64,000 nt of DNA from the NCBI GenBank assembly GCA_947495975.1, contig CANMBE010000007.1, positions 1-64,000 of the forward strand. Direction: 5' to 3'. The notes under the pieces were generated by a model. The model worked only from the letters and a program-made list of their open reading frames with translations. It was not told the DNA's origin and searched no databases. Each line of letters opens with the position of its first letter. Within the stretch, counting starts at the first letter, position 1. Made by a program: the position numbers and the translations under genes. The DNA is from Ignavibacteria bacterium (lineage in GTDB: Bacteria > Bacteroidota > Ignavibacteria > Kapaibacteriales > Kapaibacteriaceae). Shown here piece by piece: positions 15,213-56,863 of this stretch.

Positions 15213-16022
15213 ATGTTGAAGTGGATCATTTTGTCCATCGTACTCAGTCTGCTCACTTTCGCGCAGACTGCATCCGCACAAAAAATCGGATACGTGTCTA
15301 CTGATGCGATTCGAGCGCAATACGAATCAAACAAACAGGCTGTTGAAAGACTCAATGCATATGTTGACGAGTGGAAGGCAGAACTTGCTCAACGGCAATT
15401 GGATATTGATGAACTCGAAATTGAGATCAAAAAAAATCGACTTGTTTGGACTGATCAAGAGCGTCAAACAAAAGAAAAAGATGTAGAAGAAAAGCGCAGA
15501 GATCGTGATCAATTTGCCCGGATGAAGTTTGAGCCAGGGGGCGAGCACGACCAAAATGCCGAGTCGCTTTTTAAAGCGGTGTGGAGTAAAATATACCTTG
15601 CTGTGCAAAAGGTGAGTGCTGCTGAAGGGTATGATATTGTGTGGGATAAGAGTGTTCAGCCCCTTGTCTATGTGAATGCCAAGTATGACGTTACGGCCAA
15701 GGTGATGAAGGAACTAGGCATTGATGCTGATGAACTCGAGCGCAAGCAGAAAGAAGTTGTAGATTCAGACCCTCGCAACAAGCGTGTGGATGAACCGCGC
15801 AAGCGCAAATCTCGTAGTAAGGTAGCCGATACTACAGTGGCTCAACCGCCGATTACAACCGATACGAATGACACACGTAGTCCAGTAATCATGCCTGATG
15901 GTCTCATGCCAAATGGCCTTCCACCGAATGGCGAAATGCCGGGTGGCGGACCTGGGAGAAACATGCCACCGTCACTACCTTTACCATCGGACACCACCAA
16001 GAAGGAAGACGTCCCACGATGA
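15213..16022 (+). CDS. OmpH/Skp-like chaperone with Pro/Gly/Asn-rich tail (second copy)
   Basis: 269 residues. Signal peptide MLKWIILSIVLSLLTFAQTASA, then QKIGYVSTDAIRAQYE, the Skp core strand, helical tentacles (about 45-110) and closing strand YDIVWDKSVQPLVYVN. After residue 180 comes a tail absent from the first copy: a basic patch (KRVDEPRKRKSRSK) then a low-complexity run of MPDGLMPNGLPPNGEMPGG type to the C terminus. The tail may be a flexible tether or interaction arm; this is inference. It overlaps lpxD by 4 bp (ATGA). Tandem ompH copies next to bamA are common in Bacteroidota; the tail is the unusual part. Confidence 0.82.
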   Translation: MLKWIILSIVLSLLTFAQTASAQKIGYVSTDAIRAQYESNKQAVERLNAYVDEWKAELAQRQLDIDELEIEIKKNRLVWTDQERQTKEKDVEEKRRDRDQFARMKFEPGGEHDQNAESLFKAVWSKIYLAVQKVSAAEGYDIVWDKSVQPLVYVNAKYDVTAKVMKELGIDADELERKQKEVVDSDPRNKRVDEPRKRKSRSKVADTTVAQPPITTDTNDTRSPVIMPDGLMPNGLPPNGEMPGGGPGRNMPPSLPLPSDTTKKEDVPR

Positions 16023-17074
16023 GCACTGCGTTATCGTACACGGTTGAAGAACTTGCGCATCGCGTTGGTGGTGTGGCAAGGGGAGACGTGTCTTGCATCG
16101 TAGGTGGTGTTCATCGCATAGAAGATGCAGCCAGCGGAGATATAACGTTTGTTGCCAGTGATGCCTACCAAAAATTTCTTGCCATCACTCATGCATCGTG
16201 TGTACTGGTTCGTGAGATTCATTCTGCCGCTGTATCATCGGCGTCACATATCGTGGTTGACGATCCACACCGGGCATTTGTACAGGTGATGCAGGCCTTC
16301 TTTCCGTCGCAACACATGCCACAGGGTGTGCGCGCAGCAACGGCAACGATAGATTCATCGGCTTCTATCCATGCAACGGCATCCATCGGACCTGGATGCG
16401 TTATTGGTGCGTCATGTGAAATTGGCCCAAACGTGCAGTTAGTTGCAAATGTTGTGTTGTACCCAGATACGCGCATTGGCGCAGACACTATCATCCATGC
16501 TAACGTAGTGTGCTACGCATCCACGTCCATAGGGCAGCGCTGCATCATCCATGCTGGTGCCGTGATAGGTGCAGATGGATATGGATTCCTTGAAGATCCC
16601 GATAAGTCTTTTGTGAAAATCCCTCAAGTGGGATGTGTAAGAATTGGTCATGACGTAGAGATCGGTGCAAACACAACGATTGACCGTGCAGCAGTAGGGG
16701 AGACAGTGATTGAGGATGGCGTAAAGCTCGATAACCTTGTCCACATCGCACATGGAGTGCATGTAGGAGCTCATACGGCAATCGCTGCCCAAACTGGTGT
16801 TTCTGGCAGTACCATTCTTGGAAAACGTAATAGATTAGCGGGTCAGGTTGGAATTGTTGGGCATATTCAGACTACAGATGATGTAGTTATCTATGCTCAA
16901 TCAGGCGTGGGTAAGAATGTAACTCAGCCCGGAATTTATTTTGGGTCACCAATCAAAGAACATCTCACAGCATTACGCATTGAAGCCGCTGTTCGGCAGT
17001 TGCCAACAGCATTGCAAGAGTTGCGCGACCTCAAGCGTGAAGTAGAAGAACTGATCAACGCTCAAGACTCATGA
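16019..17074 (+). CDS. lpxD: UDP-3-O-acyl-glucosamine N-acyltransferase
   Basis: Third step of lipid A synthesis: transfers a 3-hydroxyacyl chain from ACP to the free amine of UDP-3-O-acyl-glucosamine. 351 residues. N-terminal uridine-binding domain (about 1-105, with ASGDITFVASDAYQKFL), then a left-handed beta helix made of hexapeptide repeats (about 110-300; e.g. IGPGCVIGASCEIGPNV) and a C-terminal helix. HGVHVGAHTAIAAQTGVSGS includes the region of the catalytic His and the conserved IAAQTGVSGS loop. ATGA overlaps link it to the ompH gene upstream and lpxC-fabZ downstream. Confidence 0.95.
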   Translation: MSTALSYTVEELAHRVGGVARGDVSCIVGGVHRIEDAASGDITFVASDAYQKFLAITHASCVLVREIHSAAVSSASHIVVDDPHRAFVQVMQAFFPSQHMPQGVRAATATIDSSASIHATASIGPGCVIGASCEIGPNVQLVANVVLYPDTRIGADTIIHANVVCYASTSIGQRCIIHAGAVIGADGYGFLEDPDKSFVKIPQVGCVRIGHDVEIGANTTIDRAAVGETVIEDGVKLDNLVHIAHGVHVGAHTAIAAQTGVSGSTILGKRNRLAGQVGIVGHIQTTDDVVIYAQSGVGKNVTQPGIYFGSPIKEHLTALRIEAAVRQLPTALQELRDLKREVEELINAQDS

Positions 17075-18483
17075 CAAGCAAACAACAAACGATTGCCGAA
17101 GCAGTAACAATGGACGGAGTGGGATTGCACACTGGCAATTCAACGTCTATGACGTTTCGTCCTGCTAGCGAAAACACAGGCTATAGATTCATTCGTACGG
17201 ATTTGCCTGGGTCGCCAGAAATCCCTGCGTTGGTAGACAACGTAGTAGATGTGTCTCGTGGTACAACTATTGCTATAGGCGATGCGCGTGTCTACACGGT
17301 TGAACACGTCTTAGCAGCTATGGTTGGTATGGGCGTAGACAACTGCCTCATCGAGCTATCAAACAATGAGCCCCCTGTAGGAGATGGATCATCATTGCCA
17401 TATGTAGAAATGATTCAGCGCAGTGGTGCTCTTGTTGAACAGTTGCAGGACAGACACGAGCTTGTTGTTGATGCGCCGATTCGATATCTCGATGAAGCGC
17501 GCGGCACAGAGATTGTAGCATTGCCGAACGATGCGTACCGCGTAACGGTGATGGTAGACTATAAGAACCCAGCTCTTGGAAGTCAGCATACTGGACTCTT
17601 TGACCTTAAGACAGAATTTGTAAGTGAGTTTGCACCAGCGCGCACGTTTTGTTTCTTGCACGAAGTAGAAGAACTGTACTCGCAAGGACTCATTCAAGGG
17701 GGCAACCTTAACAACGCAATTGTGATCGTTGATAAGGAGATGACTGATGAAGAGCTAAGAGAGACGCTTCGGAGAATTGGCGTTGAAGGCAATGCTGTTA
17801 TGGGCACAACCGGTATTGTCAATAACAATCAATTGCGATTCAAGAATGAACCGGCACGGCATAAACTGCTGGATATGATTGGAGACCTGGCATTGATCGG
17901 TGCGCCACTGAGAGCACAAGTGCTGGCAGCTAGACCTGGGCACTCATCAAACATTGAGTTTGCTCGTAAGGTACGGCGTCTTTACGAAAAGCAACAAAGT
18001 GTGAGACGCTATCAGAAATCGCCAACGGAAGGTGTAGTGTTCGACGTTAACGCTGTGATGAAGATGCTGCCACACCGCTATCCGTTCTTGATGGTTGATA
18101 GAATTACAGACTACGATCCAGAAGCGGATCGTATCGTGGGCATTAAGAACATTACTTTCAATGAGCCCCAATTTATGGGTCACTTCCCGGGACGTCCAAT
18201 ATTCCCAGGCGTGCTCATCATGGAGGCAATGGCACAGACAGGCTGCCTGTTGTTGCTATCAAAAGGTGTTGATCCTGAAAAGAAACTCGTGCTCTTTACA
18301 GGCATGAACAATGTGAAGTTTCGAAAAGAAGTAACGCCAGGCGATCAGCTCGTAATGGAGCTTACAATGACGAATTTCAGATTTAATATTTGCCGCCTTG
18401 TTGGCAAGGCGTTTGTTGGCGGGCAACTTGTTGCAGAGGCCGAATTATCGGCCGCTGTGGTCAACAGAGAGATAGCCCCATGA
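17071..18483 (+). CDS. lpxC-fabZ: Bifunctional UDP-3-O-acyl-N-acetylglucosamine deacetylase / 3-hydroxyacyl-ACP dehydratase
   Basis: A fusion of two enzymes in one 470-residue protein. Residues 1-310 are LpxC, the zinc deacetylase that commits the cell to lipid A: HTG in GVGLHTGNSTSM, VEHVLAAM with a zinc His, and ARHKLLDMIGDLAL with the second zinc His and Asp. Residues about 325-470 are FabZ, the dehydratase of fatty acid elongation: MKMLPHRYPFLMVDRI and HFPGRPIFPGVLIMEAMAQ with the catalytic His and Glu. The fusion is characteristic of Bacteroidota/Chlorobiota and ties the flow of 3-hydroxyacyl-ACP to both pathways. ATGA overlap with lpxA. Confidence 0.96.
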   Translation: MTSKQQTIAEAVTMDGVGLHTGNSTSMTFRPASENTGYRFIRTDLPGSPEIPALVDNVVDVSRGTTIAIGDARVYTVEHVLAAMVGMGVDNCLIELSNNEPPVGDGSSLPYVEMIQRSGALVEQLQDRHELVVDAPIRYLDEARGTEIVALPNDAYRVTVMVDYKNPALGSQHTGLFDLKTEFVSEFAPARTFCFLHEVEELYSQGLIQGGNLNNAIVIVDKEMTDEELRETLRRIGVEGNAVMGTTGIVNNNQLRFKNEPARHKLLDMIGDLALIGAPLRAQVLAARPGHSSNIEFARKVRRLYEKQQSVRRYQKSPTEGVVFDVNAVMKMLPHRYPFLMVDRITDYDPEADRIVGIKNITFNEPQFMGHFPGRPIFPGVLIMEAMAQTGCLLLLSKGVDPEKKLVLFTGMNNVKFRKEVTPGDQLVMELTMTNFRFNICRLVGKAFVGGQLVAEAELSAAVVNREIAP

Positions 18484-19268
18484 TCCATGCTACTGCAAGT
18501 GTATCGCCAAAGGCACAGATAGCCGAAAACGTTTCTATTGGAGCTTTTTGCATTGTAGAAGACGATGTAGAGATTGGTGCTGGCACAGTCCTCATGGGTC
18601 ATTCCTATGTTGGTAACGGGGCTCGTATTGGCGCTGACGTGCGCATACACCCCAATGCAGTGATCTCTACTGCACCTCAAGATCTAAAGTATCGTAATGA
18701 GCCAACGGTAGCTATCATTGGGGACCGTACGGTTATTCGCGAGAGTGTTACTGTAAACCGCGGAACGGTTTCTAGTGGCAAAACACAAGTAGGATCTGAT
18801 TGCCTCATCATGGCATACGTGCATGTTGCGCATGACTGTGTTGTTGGTTCAAATGTGATTATGGCCAACTCAGTTCAGCTTGGTGGCCATGTTGAAGTAG
18901 GAGATTGGGCAATTGTTGGTGGACTTACTGGGGTGCATCAATTCTGCCGCATTGGTATTCACACAATGATTGGTGCCAATTCGCGAGTTGTGAAAGATGT
19001 GCCTCCCTACACGTTATGCGGAAGAGACCCGCTCGTGGTTGAAGGTGTCAATTCTGTTGGCTTGCGCAGAAGGGGCTTTGACCTCAATTCAATTACTGCG
19101 ATTGACGACTTCTATACAGACCTTTTGCGCAAGGGGCTCAACACCTCAGATGGCATTCAGCGATATGTTGATACACATAACGAGCTTGATTCAGCCGTTG
19201 CGTATTGTATTGAATTCATTAGAACGTCCAAGCGTGGAATCTATAGAGGTTCTCAACTACGGTCGTGA
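18480..19268 (+). CDS. lpxA: UDP-N-acetylglucosamine acyltransferase
   Basis: First step of lipid A synthesis. The start is the ATG at 18480, which overlaps the lpxC-fabZ stop as ATGA and gives 262 residues, exactly the family's size; the longer frame from 18390 lies inside fabZ. Hexapeptide-repeat beta helix (about 1-185, e.g. IHATASVSPKAQIAENVSIG), with VHVAHDCVVGSNVIMAN carrying the catalytic His and the GGHVEVGDWAIVGGLTGVHQ loop typical of LpxA. The C-terminal helical domain has GLNTSDGIQRYV. Last gene of the uppS-to-lpxA operon; no hairpin terminator is obvious in the 185 bp that follow. Confidence 0.95.
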   Translation: MIHATASVSPKAQIAENVSIGAFCIVEDDVEIGAGTVLMGHSYVGNGARIGADVRIHPNAVISTAPQDLKYRNEPTVAIIGDRTVIRESVTVNRGTVSSGKTQVGSDCLIMAYVHVAHDCVVGSNVIMANSVQLGGHVEVGDWAIVGGLTGVHQFCRIGIHTMIGANSRVVKDVPPYTLCGRDPLVVEGVNSVGLRRRGFDLNSITAIDDFYTDLLRKGLNTSDGIQRYVDTHNELDSAVAYCIEFIRTSKRGIYRGSQLRS

Positions 19269-52643: not shown

Positions 52644-53054
52644 GTGGCAATTCCAAAACCTCGATCTGTAAAAGGGCGCGCAGTTCTTTGCGCTCGCCTG
52701 GCTCAACAGAAACAAGCACACGAACTTCTATTGCTCGATCTTACAACCGTTGAGTCGGCCCCGGCCGACTTCTTTGTTATCGCATCGGTAGATTCTGAAG
52801 CTCAGCTAAAGGCGGTCTCAGATGTCATCGAAAGCACACTCAAGGAAATGGGCTTTGGAGCCCCACGTTCGGAAGGACGCGGCACATCTACCTGGGTGAT
52901 TCTTGACTACTTCGACATTCTTGTGCACATCATGGTGAAGGCAACGAGAGATTTCTATAAGCTGGAGCGTTTATGGGGCGATGCTAAGGCATATACGCTC
53001 ACTGAAGCGGGTGCAGCAAAAGCCACAACTGTCTCGACCAAAAGGGCTATTTGA
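52644..53054 (+). CDS. rsfS: Ribosomal silencing factor RsfS
   Basis: Binds uL14 on the 50S subunit and blocks joining to 30S when nutrients run out. 136 residues from a GTG start. Signature region: HELLLLDLTTVESAPADFFVIASVDSEAQ, then MGFGAPRSEGRGTSTWVILDYFDILVHIM and FYKLERLWGDAKAY, all typical of RsfS. The C-terminal Ala/Thr-rich tail is not conserved. Its stop overlaps the argS start by 4 bp. Confidence 0.93.
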   Translation: MAIPKPRSVKGRAVLCARLAQQKQAHELLLLDLTTVESAPADFFVIASVDSEAQLKAVSDVIESTLKEMGFGAPRSEGRGTSTWVILDYFDILVHIMVKATRDFYKLERLWGDAKAYTLTEAGAAKATTVSTKRAI

Positions 53055-54703
53055 CGATGATGATGCAACGGTATATCGAACCTCATGTGCGTGTGGCTCT
53101 GCTATCTCTTGGTGTTACACCGCCAGAATCTATTGCCTTTAGTGTCCCACGTCAAGATGGCCATGGCCACTTATCGGCAAACATTGCAATGGTTTATGCT
53201 AAGGGGCTCAACAAAACCCCCAAAGCATTTGCCCAGGAAATTGTAGATGCGTTAGGCACGGTAGCTCTCATTGACAATATTGAAATAGCTGGTCCAGGCT
53301 TTATAAACTTTACATTTTCAGATGACGTGTATCATGCCATGCTTCGCGATCTAGAAGCCATGAGTGATAACATCGGTAGGTCTACCGTTGGTACTGGCAA
53401 ATCTGTAAACGTAGAGTACGTAAGCGCAAACCCCACTGGTCCTCTTCACGCTGGCCATGGTCGCAATTGTGCCGTAGGTGATACGATCGCTAATCTATTT
53501 GCATGGTGTGGATATTCGGTAACACGCGAGTATTATTTCAATAATGCCGGCAACCAGATGAATAAACTGGGCCAGAGCATTTATGCTCGCGTCCAGAATC
53601 AGATTGGCAATGTTGACTATCCTTTTCCAGAGGATGGGTATCACGGCGAGTACATTCACACGGTGGCACAAAACATTGTGCGTGACCATAGAGCTGAATT
53701 CGAAGCGTTGAATGAAACAGATGCGCATGCCTTCTGCCGCAAACAAGGGGAGACGTGGTGTTTTGCCTCGATTCAAAAAACCCTTGAGTTGATGAACATT
53801 CGTCACAATGAATATTTTAACGAAGACTCTCTCTATAGCGACGGTAAGGTAGCAGCCACCATCGAGGCACTGCGAGAGCTTGGCTTAGTCTATGAAAAAG
53901 ACGGGGCTCAGTGGTTCGCACTAACGGAGCTAGGAGCACAACAAGACAAGGTGATTGTAAAGTCTACAGGCGAGCCAACGTACCGCCTTCCAGACATTGC
54001 CTATCACCGAGATAAACTGCAGCGCGGGTTTGATGTAATCGTAGACATCTTTGGTGCCGATCACATTGCCACAATTCCAGACGTCCTCGCTGGTGTCCGT
54101 GCGCTAGGGTTCAACACGGATCAGGTAAAGGTTGTCATCCACCAGATGGTAACATTTGTTGAGAACGGTGAAATAGTAAAGTTCTCAAAGAGAAGCGGTA
54201 CGTCATTTACACTCGATGAGCTTATTGCCGAGGTAGGTGCAGACGTTGTTCGTTTCTTTTTTGTGATGCGTGCAGTTGGAACACATCTCGAGTTTGATCT
54301 TGGTCTAGCAAAAGAGGAGGGTGAAAAGAACCCCGTTTTCTATCTGCAATATGCACACGCCCGCATTTGCTCGATTCTGCGTAAGGCATCTGAAAAGGGT
54401 CTCGTCCCACAGCCAACGTCAGACATTTCTATTCTTACGCACGCACGAGAGATTGAACTCATTGGTCTGCTCTCTCGCATGCAGGTTGCAATTGAGCGCG
54501 CATGCGAAAACTTGGAGCCTCATACCATCGCGGAATATTTGCGAGATGTGGCGGCAGCATACCACAACTTCTATCATGACTGTAGAATTCTTAACGCAGA
54601 ACCAAACATTGAAGCAGCGCGATTGCTGCTTGCTGAGGTTACGCGCCGCGCAATGCGCAACGGTCTGTTGCTTTTGGGTGTTGGTACGCCTGAACGTATG
54701 TAA
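53051..54703 (+). CDS. argS: Arginyl-tRNA synthetase
   Basis: 550 residues, class I synthetase. N-terminal additional domain (about 1-90), Rossmann core with the HIGH-type motif NPTGPLHAGHGR near residue 126, insertion VEYVSANPTGP just before it, later YRLPDIAYHRDKLQRGFD and IVKFSKRSGTSFTLDELIAEVG. This last segment stands where MSKR would be (FSKRSG), with the class-typical Lys. The C-terminal DALR anticodon domain ends MRNGLLLLGVGTPERM, the standard end of ArgS. Coupled to rsfS. Confidence 0.96.
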   Translation: MTMMMQRYIEPHVRVALLSLGVTPPESIAFSVPRQDGHGHLSANIAMVYAKGLNKTPKAFAQEIVDALGTVALIDNIEIAGPGFINFTFSDDVYHAMLRDLEAMSDNIGRSTVGTGKSVNVEYVSANPTGPLHAGHGRNCAVGDTIANLFAWCGYSVTREYYFNNAGNQMNKLGQSIYARVQNQIGNVDYPFPEDGYHGEYIHTVAQNIVRDHRAEFEALNETDAHAFCRKQGETWCFASIQKTLELMNIRHNEYFNEDSLYSDGKVAATIEALRELGLVYEKDGAQWFALTELGAQQDKVIVKSTGEPTYRLPDIAYHRDKLQRGFDVIVDIFGADHIATIPDVLAGVRALGFNTDQVKVVIHQMVTFVENGEIVKFSKRSGTSFTLDELIAEVGADVVRFFFVMRAVGTHLEFDLGLAKEEGEKNPVFYLQYAHARICSILRKASEKGLVPQPTSDISILTHAREIELIGLLSRMQVAIERACENLEPHTIAEYLRDVAAAYHNFYHDCRILNAEPNIEAARLLLAEVTRRAMRNGLLLLGVGTPERM

Positions 54704-54728: not shown

Positions 54729-55610
54729 ATGATGCGCGACTACTACTATGAACTCAATGATCGCGGTGTCCTCACACTTGATGGATATGTGCAGGATGAT
54801 CCGTGGTTTGTTGATTTCTTTTTTCGTCGTCTCGCTGCAACTGCAAATCCGGAGTATCCAGAATATCCATATGTATGCAGATGTGGAGATGAAATGAATT
54901 ATCTGCGCCCAGCAGATACACCAATTGTCTATACTGGTTTTGATGGGTCTCGGTTATTCTATGGCCATTCGCTCTCAACGCCGTTCTACCCTGAGCGACT
55001 CTCGTATTCTTCCGATGGCGTGCTCTATCATTGGGCGCCAGTAGGCGGCCGCGCAAGAATCGCTCCATCTGTTGCAATTGAACTATCACGGCATATTGAA
55101 CCGTGGGGATCAATGTTTGCATACCTCGGTGATAGCGGGCGCGAATATGTTCCGCTGATGCCACTGCAAATGGAAGACACGATTGAGATTCTTAGACCGA
55201 AGCGTGACAACAATTGTGTGGGCTGCGGAATGGCGAATCCATTCTCATTGCGCCTCTCATTTGTACGCAATCGTAAGGACGGTGTAATTCACACGTGGCT
55301 TCGTCCAGACGAACGCATGCATGGCTCAATGGGGACCACACACGGTGGATTTGTTTCTCTGTTGCTCGACGAAACAATGGGGAAAGCGCTCAGCGCACGC
55401 GGTATAAGAGCGCCAACTGCGCGCATTGCTGTGAACTTTAGACGTCCAATGTTGTTAGGCGAGGAATACGAAGTTCGATCGTGGTTAGGAGCGCAACAAG
55501 GTCGCAAGAATTACGTCTATGGAGAGATACGAGCGTTGAGTAACTACGATCTTGTGGTTGCCGATGCTGAAGCACTTTTCATTGAGGTAAAGCCGCCGGC
55601 TCTTGGATGA
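54729..55610 (+). CDS. UPF0598 (DUF4505) - hotdog thioesterase fusion protein
   Basis: 293 residues made of two parts. Residues 1-155 match UPF0598, the family of human C8orf82: FFFRRLAATANPEYPEYPYV, CGDEMNYLRPADTPIVYTGF, LSTPFYPERLSYSSDGVLYH and SVAIELSRHIEPWGSM. Residues 158-293 are a PaaI-type hotdog thioesterase: NNCVGCGMANPFSLRLSF (binding loop), MHGSMGTTHGGFVSLLLDE with the His-Gly-Gly and catalytic acid position, and the sheet to the end. UPF0598 function is unknown; fused to an acyl-CoA thioesterase, it may act in acyl-CoA handling. The separate families are recognised by eye; the fusion is plain in one frame without breaks. Confidence 0.78.
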   Translation: MMRDYYYELNDRGVLTLDGYVQDDPWFVDFFFRRLAATANPEYPEYPYVCRCGDEMNYLRPADTPIVYTGFDGSRLFYGHSLSTPFYPERLSYSSDGVLYHWAPVGGRARIAPSVAIELSRHIEPWGSMFAYLGDSGREYVPLMPLQMEDTIEILRPKRDNNCVGCGMANPFSLRLSFVRNRKDGVIHTWLRPDERMHGSMGTTHGGFVSLLLDETMGKALSARGIRAPTARIAVNFRRPMLLGEEYEVRSWLGAQQGRKNYVYGEIRALSNYDLVVADAEALFIEVKPPALG

Positions 55611-56863
55611 ATCAACAACCGAACATACTTCTCTTCAGCGTCATTCTCGGCGCTGTTTTTTTACTCCTTGACTTGTACGTCCTCGGTCATTGGACGCAGT
55701 ACGTGCGCCGTAAGGAAATGAACCCATGGTGGCATCGCTCATTGTGGATTGTTGGTACTGTAATGGCAGTGTTTTATTGGGTGGTTGTGTGTCGCCGTCA
55801 TTTCTTCCGAATGGATGGGCTAGACGTTACGTTCTTCGGATTTGTCACATTATGGTATTTGCCAAAGCTGGCAATCATGACGGTGCTCGCGTTTCGCGAT
55901 GTGATACGGGGCTTCAAGGCCCTTGTGCGTGCCCTTCGCCAGAAAACAACACCAATTCACCCACCCAGTAAACCTGGTGTACTTGCGGACTCTAGCAGGC
56001 GGACATTCCTCACCAACACAGCATGGTCTCTCTCTACCGTTCCATATGTGATTGTTGGCAATGGGATGTGGCGAACGTTGTATGATTTTCAGACGATCAA
56101 TGTAGATCTCAACATTCATCGGCTGCCAAAAGCATTTGATGGAATGCGCATTGCCCAAATCTCCGACATTCATGCGGGATCGTTTCCTGACCATCGTCCG
56201 TTTCAAGAAGTGCGAAGAATTCTTGATGCGCTGAAGCCCGACATGATTGTTATCACTGGCGACTTCGTAAATGCGAGGCCTGGCGAAATGTCTTTGATTG
56301 CAAAGGATCTTGCGAAGCTCAACGCTCCGCATGGCGTTTTTGCTACGCTTGGAAATCACGATCACTACCACACAATTGCAGAGCATAAAGAGCTAATCGC
56401 TGGGATTCGCAGCCTTAGTGTTGACCTTATTATTAATGAGCACCGCCGCATTATTGAAGGGGGTTCAACACTCATAATTGCCGGTACCGATAATACTGGT
56501 TTCAAACAGTCTTATGGCAAGCTCGGAAAAGCACTCCACGGCGTTCTGGAAGACGAAACAACGATTCTCCTTGCTCATGATCCAACGCTGTGGGACAAGG
56601 AAGTTATTGGCGCAACCAACATTGATGTTATGATGGCCGGCCACACACACGGCGGACAACTAGGCGTACAACTTCTTGGTTTTGAATGGAGCCCTGCTCA
56701 ATACGTCTACAAACAATGGGCTGGCCTTTATGCTGCGGGCGACCAAAAGCTCTACGTAAACCGTGGTATTGGAACTGTAGGCCCACCACTTCGCATTGGT
56801 ATCCCACCTGAGATCACTTTATTTACTCTACGTGCATCGGCTACTTCTGACCATCTTGCATGA
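55607..56863 (+). CDS. Membrane-bound metallophosphoesterase (YkuE-like)
   Basis: 418 residues. Four N-terminal membrane helices (first 125 residues) precede a calcineurin-like domain with all metal motifs: IAQISDIHAGSF (D, H), VITGDFVNARPG (G-D), ATLGNHDHYHTI (GNHD), LLAHDPTLWD (H) and MAGHTHGGQLGV (GHTH). Relatives such as YkuE hydrolyse UDP-2,3-diacylglucosamine-like or other phosphoesters at the membrane; substrate here is open. TGATGAAAAA at its stop forms a small hairpin with TTCATCA downstream (56861-56879) that may act as a weak terminator. Overlaps the fusion gene by 4 bp. Confidence 0.88.
   Translation: MNQQPNILLFSVILGAVFLLLDLYVLGHWTQYVRRKEMNPWWHRSLWIVGTVMAVFYWVVVCRRHFFRMDGLDVTFFGFVTLWYLPKLAIMTVLAFRDVIRGFKALVRALRQKTTPIHPPSKPGVLADSSRRTFLTNTAWSLSTVPYVIVGNGMWRTLYDFQTINVDLNIHRLPKAFDGMRIAQISDIHAGSFPDHRPFQEVRRILDALKPDMIVITGDFVNARPGEMSLIAKDLAKLNAPHGVFATLGNHDHYHTIAEHKELIAGIRSLSVDLIINEHRRIIEGGSTLIIAGTDNTGFKQSYGKLGKALHGVLEDETTILLAHDPTLWDKEVIGATNIDVMMAGHTHGGQLGVQLLGFEWSPAQYVYKQWAGLYAAGDQKLYVNRGIGTVGPPLRIGIPPEITLFTLRASATSDHLA

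Follow-up and report, generated by a model that had tools for sequence, protein, structure and literature searches.

A single-frame fusion of a DUF4505/UPF0598 domain to a hotdog thioesterase-type domain in Kapaibacteriales suggests a link to coenzyme A

The window analysed here is a 64,000-nucleotide stretch of Ignavibacteria bacterium DNA (contig CANMBE010000007.1, positions 1 to 64,000). One of its genes was taken, in a sequence-only reading, to join a UPF0598 domain and a PaaI-type hotdog domain in one frame, which raises the questions of whether the fusion is real and whether it ties DUF4505/UPF0598 to acyl-CoA or acyl-thioester chemistry. UPF0598 has been placed in Metazoa (PMC2954204), and its human representative, C8orf82, is located in the mitochondrial matrix (PMC7066081), where it counts among the uncharacterised ('dark') proteins. 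The fusion provides the first testable hint that DUF4505/UPF0598 works with coenzyme A compounds.

The gene runs from an ATG to a TGA codon as a single frame encoding 293 aa. PF14956 (DUF4505) matches residues 2-124 across profile positions 9-151 of 177 (E 1.3e-17, 64.6 bits, Pfam cut-off 27.3), and PF03061 (4HBT) matches residues 201-269 (33.4 bits, Pfam cut-off 20.6). The first 155 residues alone score 67.2 bits with PF14956, which removes one of the two objections that could have overturned the sequence-only reading. The boundary between the domains, expected near residue 155, was right to within ten residues, as fold comparison gives a DUF4505-type fold at about 1-145 and a hotdog at about 151-289. 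The features of the gene are as follows:

54729-55610, + strand: whole fusion gene, 293 aa (open reading frame and sequence, family matches, 41 distinct relatives)
54729-55163, + strand: DUF4505/UPF0598 domain, residues 1-145, with a predicted DUF1285-superfamily fold (PF14956; fold comparison with 2ra9 and 2re3)
54885-54923, + strand: G-D-E-x7-D-T-P motif, residues 53-65 (G53, E55, D63, P65), near-invariant in 41 proteins
55017-55058, + strand: G-V-L-Y-H-x-A-P-V-G-x3-R motif, residues 97-110, conserved in 41/41; candidate ligand site
55164-55181, + strand: short junction, about residues 146-151 (the first aligned residue of the hotdog is 151)
55179-55595, + strand: hotdog thioesterase domain, residues 151-289, THEM4/PaaI type (PF03061; folds of 2ov9 and THEM4 4gah)
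55215-55229, + strand: C163-x2-C166-G167 motif at the start of the hotdog, invariant in 41/41
55341-55373, + strand: predicted catalytic segment H205-G206-G207 ... D214-E215, invariant in 41/41 and aligned to human THEM4

Related genomes supply 41 distinct fusions, essentially full-length, that can be aligned with this frame over its whole extent, which rules out a chance open reading frame or an assembly artefact. With both Pfam models scoring over cut-off, the gene is confirmed as a real DUF4505-hotdog fusion, as the sequence-only reading had it. The structure prediction proposed alongside that reading gave a whole-chain AlphaFold model with pLDDT 94.7 and pTM 0.86; because this model is confident and leaves only about six residues between the domains, it suggests that the two have a defined arrangement.

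The closest relatives found are MAG contigs, mostly labelled Kapaibacterium or Ignavibacteria; NCBI places Kapaibacterium in Bacteroidota. The genome of the window (2.18 Mb) has exactly one DUF4505. The domain was found in 19 of the 197 genomes of a class sample and in 18 of the 395 genomes of a phylum sample, all of them from the window's order, and the phylum sample yielded none outside it. Searches of plasmids found no DUF4505, and in IMG/VR none was confirmed. Within the order, 49 of 119 genomes have a match to the DUF4505 part of the alignment, and 46 of the 119 match its hotdog part with at least 118 bits. Each of these 46 hotdogs immediately follows a DUF4505 match on its contig, and in the translated representatives both halves share one frame. 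The sequence-only reading would have been undermined by a hotdog equally common without DUF4505, but a survey across the order thus returned 46 intact fusions in 49 DUF4505 genomes and no close hotdog relative lacking the partner. The remaining three comprise two genomes in which the gene is cut by contig ends (G104 and G527) and one with a decayed hotdog (G517). Unfused hotdogs of the order score at most 61 bits and occur without DUF4505; neither a free DUF4505 nor a close free hotdog was seen in the 119 genomes. An 82-bit piece in G522, consisting of the second half of the hotdog domain alone in a 77-aa frame, probably represents the remaining part of a fusion gene that is broken in that genome.

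The fusion has been kept unsplit across at least seven family-level groups (f1, f2, f3, f7, f8, f64 and f65) at very high divergence. Among the 41 fusions, the halves are equally conserved, with a mean column entropy of 1.67 bits for DUF4505 and 1.62 bits for the hotdog. Compared with its nearest relatives, the window protein has in each half a dN of 0.12-0.25 and a dS that exceeds 2.5 or is saturated; both halves are under purifying selection. Trees built half by half have 10 well-supported groupings in common and one conflict. The distances of the two halves show a correlation of 0.71, whereas 200 permutations gave no value above 0.23. A single ancient fusion event, passed on mostly by vertical descent, is the simplest account of these data. 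In the G517 relative (L108, G517:C210, 5391-6341) the frame is intact and DUF4505 well conserved, and the hotdog lacks the HGG and catalytic Asp that are kept in G509 (L107), a sister genome of G517's genus. Retention of DUF4505 therefore does not require that its chain carry an active thioesterase.

Modelled alone, the DUF4505 domain has a pLDDT of 92.8, and its only matches among solved proteins are two DUF1285 structures, 2ra9 (Z 10.8 over 119 residues, model residues 2-142) and 2re3 (Z 10.2 over 135 residues, model residues 1-145). The next structural match has a Z of 3.3, and Foldseek relates the model to DUF1285 at E 2.7e-6. An hhalign comparison brings DUF4505 and DUF1285 into one register, with an E-x7-D-x-P motif common to both, but the match is weak (E 0.0037, probability 9%). 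The G-D-E-x7-D-T-P of DUF4505 has the same spacing as T-P-V-E-x7-D-A-P, invariant columns in DUF1285, for which the comparison sequences were the chains of 2re3 and 2ra9. All 25 members of alignment A2 match PF14956 (best E 3.1e-27), whereas none matched the DUF1285 models PF06938 and PF21028 at E up to 5. A PDB profile search with the DUF4505 alignment gave no sequence-level match, and the relation appears only by fold. The models thus support DUF4505 as a two-lobed DUF1285-superfamily fold that, at 13-18% identity and in a separate Pfam family, is not a member of DUF1285 itself. Earlier, this relation was on record only through personal communications from Aravind and Grishin in 2010 (PMC2954204). 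Two other candidates were rejected: NUDT7 as a structural relative, at a noise-level Z of 2.6, and a zinc ribbon around C50/C52, for which Pfam matches were sub-threshold only and the first cysteine varies in alignment A1.

Across the 41 fusions, G97, Y100 and R110 of the DUF4505 half are invariant and E55, N57, D63 and H101 near-invariant, making these seven residues a candidate ligand site; none of the computational tools applied identified a ligand. Like UPF0598 and human C8orf82, the N-terminal half matches PF14956 over cut-off, so its family membership by sequence stands. Its setting differs, however: UPF0598 is usually mitochondrial, in a eukaryotic host, whereas the DUF4505 described here is bacterial and always shares a chain with a thioesterase-type domain. 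DUF1285 and UPF0598 both occur free of any hotdog (PMC2954204, PMC2954208).

The nearest solved structures to the hotdog half are 2ov9 (RHA08564, Z 20.1), human THEM2 (17.1) and human THEM4 (4gah, 16.9); for this group the hotdog half spans Z 16.7-20.1, with HGG and Asp aligned. Against acyl-CoA thioesterases, several of which were crystallised with CoA ligands, Z is 15-20. Together with the PF03061 match, fold scores of up to 20.1 place this half in the 4HBT superfamily. In hotdog proteins, HGG with a following acidic residue forms the acyl-CoA thioesterase active site. H205, G206, G207, D214 and T230 are invariant in 41/41 fusions, and the HGG and Asp align with those of human THEM4. This pair, required in THEM4/PaaI-type enzymes, is lost in the G517 protein only. 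Thioesterase activity of the hotdog half is likely. THEM4 differs in having a short N-terminal extension where the fusion has DUF4505. The earlier label 'PaaI-type' holds at superfamily level, through these nearest folds, but not for PaaI itself: the hydroxyphenylacetyl-CoA thioesterase is ruled out by an equivalog score of 17.7 bits against a TIGR02286 cut-off of 118.9, and no phenylacetate operon was seen among the neighbouring genes examined. Four other 4HBT genes (open frames of 143-180 aa) are present in the genome, so the fusion is not its only thioesterase.

What the DUF4505 half might bind is suggested by its fold relative. Nudix hydrolases stand beside most DUF1285 genes, and a nucleotide ligand with a role in oxidative-stress signalling was proposed; the conserved cleft resembled nucleotide-ligand sites, with matches that include 1dqa and 1dm3, has no strictly conserved residues and was judged non-catalytic by its authors (PMC2954208). 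Of 12 plasmid or chromid records, 8, covering seven genera, have a CoA pyrophosphatase gene directly after DUF1285 and then a gene for the CCA-adding enzyme:

L030, L031, L032, L034, L035, L116, L117 and L118: gene order DUF1285, CoA pyrophosphatase, CCA-adding enzyme (alphaproteobacterial plasmids/chromids)

In Rhizobium and Sphingomonas the annotated DUF1285 and CoA pyrophosphatase frames overlap by four bases. Five DUF1285-linked Nudix genes that were scanned score 125-179 bits to NF007980, far above other Nudix models; the cut-off is 134, and one of the five, scanned as a partial frame, falls just under it. The structures 1dqa and 1dm3 we take to be HMG-CoA reductase and an acetyl-CoA thiolase complex, respectively. 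The alphaproteobacterial cases share ancestry, and DUF1285 does not adjoin the CoA pyrophosphatase in Paracoccus and Acinetobacter. Fusion to a thioesterase and this gene order, occurring in unrelated bacteria, thus provide two independent contexts that point to CoA. The earlier hint of acyl-CoA or acyl-thioester chemistry is strengthened by the placement of DUF1285 upstream of CoA pyrophosphatase; it still argues from association, and the non-CoA neighbours of the fusion and the hotdog decay in G517 weigh against it.

Some further observations concern these genes. The alphaproteobacterial trio often lies behind a divergent MoxR-DUF58 pair. In Acinetobacter (L033, 2979-5489), DUF1285 is divergent to the electron-transfer-flavoprotein:ubiquinone oxidoreductase, a partner of fatty-acid oxidation, which is a further, weak lipid/CoA hint. 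A CoA-pyrophosphatase-like Nudix gene in the genome of the window (G000:C12:63926-64405, L121) lies at a great distance from the fusion; its score of 102 bits is under cut-off.

The neighbours of the fusion in the window are:

52644-53054, + strand: rsfS, preceding the argS-like gene (RsfS by Pfam)
53051-54703, + strand: argS-like gene (arginyl-tRNA synthetase) upstream of the fusion (read from its translation)
55607-56863, + strand: metallophosphoesterase, YaeI/LpxG-like, with a hydrophobic N-terminus (PF00149, 61.2 bits)

The argS-like gene ends 25 bases before the fusion, and its cluster (c2) is upstream in 15 of the 28 loci compared. The start of the metallophosphoesterase overlaps the stop of the fusion by four bases (ATGA), and this gene lies directly downstream in 19 of the 28, making it a possible functional partner. 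A thioredoxin-fold (ResA/DsbE-like) gene (c23) adjoins some fusions and nicotinate phosphoribosyltransferase adjoins those of one genus. The neighbours in the 28 loci are housekeeping genes, with no CoA genes among them. In other families of the order (L104, L105, L106 and L113) the fusion adjoins a D-aminoacyl-tRNA deacylase (TIGR00256, 179 bits in the one copy scanned).

Computation shows a conserved fusion with two recognisable folds and intact catalytic residues. On this rests our preferred reading, which we give a probability of roughly 0.45: an acyl-CoA thioesterase with a rigidly attached, CoA-metabolite-binding and probably regulatory DUF4505 domain. The C-terminal hotdog would hydrolyse acyl-CoA or a related acyl thioester as THEM4/PaaI enzymes usually do: the HGG segment would hold the carbonyl of the thioester while Asp214 would activate a water molecule. 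The two-lobed DUF4505 cleft may bind a CoA-type metabolite (CoA, acyl-CoA or its nucleotide part) and either deliver it to the thioesterase or use it to tune the enzyme; here we infer the activity, the CoA ligand and the regulation alike. Mitochondrial UPF0598 (C8orf82) and proteobacterial DUF1285, as homologues, would be expected to bind this ligand class too, each as a separate protein acting with CoA-handling enzymes. Among the strongest contrary facts are the decay of the hotdog in G517 and the non-CoA neighbours of the fusion. A further point against the reading is that hotdog domains readily fuse with many kinds of partner.

A somewhat unlikely alternative is that DUF4505 binds no small molecule and serves as a structural or docking module, fixing the hotdog oligomer or tethering a partner, with all chemistry left to the hotdog. 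The short junction and confident joint model are in keeping with this, as are the alignments of THEM4 and THEM5, which cover model residues 122-291 with their N-terminal extensions overlying the last DUF4505 strands, and those of plasmid PaaI-family thioesterases, which begin at residue 136. However, the conserved E55, N57, D63, Y100, H101 and R110 resemble a site more than packing, DUF1285 and UPF0598 exist without a hotdog (PMC2954204, PMC2954208), and DUF4505 is still conserved in G517 despite the loss of its partner's active site.

It is less probable again that DUF4505 and DUF1285 sense a non-CoA nucleotide, with the thioesterase as the output of redox or stress signalling or acting on acyl-ACP. 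This would accord with what was first proposed for DUF1285, a nucleotide ligand and a part in oxidative-stress signalling (PMC2954208), and with the ResA/DsbE-like gene and nicotinate phosphoribosyltransferase beside some fusions, but the DUF1285-linked Nudix proteins belong specifically to the CoA pyrophosphatase family rather than a general nucleotide type, and the hotdog is of acyl-CoA type. An enzymatic role for DUF4505, catalysing a step that precedes or follows the thioesterase reaction on the same metabolite, seems improbable. E55, D63, Y100 and R110 are invariant or near-invariant, and bifunctional fusions usually join consecutive steps; against this, the domain has no enzyme-like fold match beyond DUF1285, whose cleft has no strictly conserved residues and was judged non-catalytic (PMC2954208). 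A neutral accident joining two neighbouring genes of no shared function would suit the housekeeping neighbourhood and the G517 decay, but is very improbable given a fusion unsplit across at least seven highly divergent family-level groups and purifying selection on both halves.

If the preferred reading of a thioesterase with a CoA-metabolite-binding DUF4505 domain is extended, the DUF4505/UPF0598-DUF1285 superfamily might be an unrecognised class of CoA/acyl-CoA-binding regulatory domains common to bacteria and mitochondria, with C8orf82 a CoA/acyl-CoA sensor of the matrix; we consider this possible but doubtful. The kapaibacterial fusion and the proteobacterial pairing with CoA pyrophosphatase would then be two independent readouts of one domain class, and human C8orf82 would work with separate thioesterases or CoA diphosphatases. 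Both domain families were already known and the DUF1285 relation already proposed, while the papers searched contained no report of a DUF4505-thioesterase fusion, a DUF1285-CoA pyrophosphatase link or a CoA role. Crystal structures of DUF1285 have existed since 2007 and, to our knowledge, no function has been assigned to it. A fixed fusion to a predicted thioesterase in one lineage and a CoA pyrophosphatase linkage, by translational coupling, in another converge on one small, assayable ligand class, and the function of both families is therefore directly testable with soluble bacterial protein. The interest of the finding is moderate and lies mainly in making a dark mitochondrial family testable.

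Two minor observations concern lipid A genes. The metallophosphoesterase behind the fusion scores 106 bits to YaeI and 97 bits to LpxG, both under cut-off, and was rejected as a missing LpxG; the genome also has an LpxH-like gene, itself below cut-off. Elsewhere in the window, 16019-19268 holds three consecutive genes: one LpxD-like, one that joins an LpxC-like part to a FabZ-like C-terminal part in a single frame, and LpxA, the only one scored with a model. LpxC-FabZ fusions are known from Bacteroidota.
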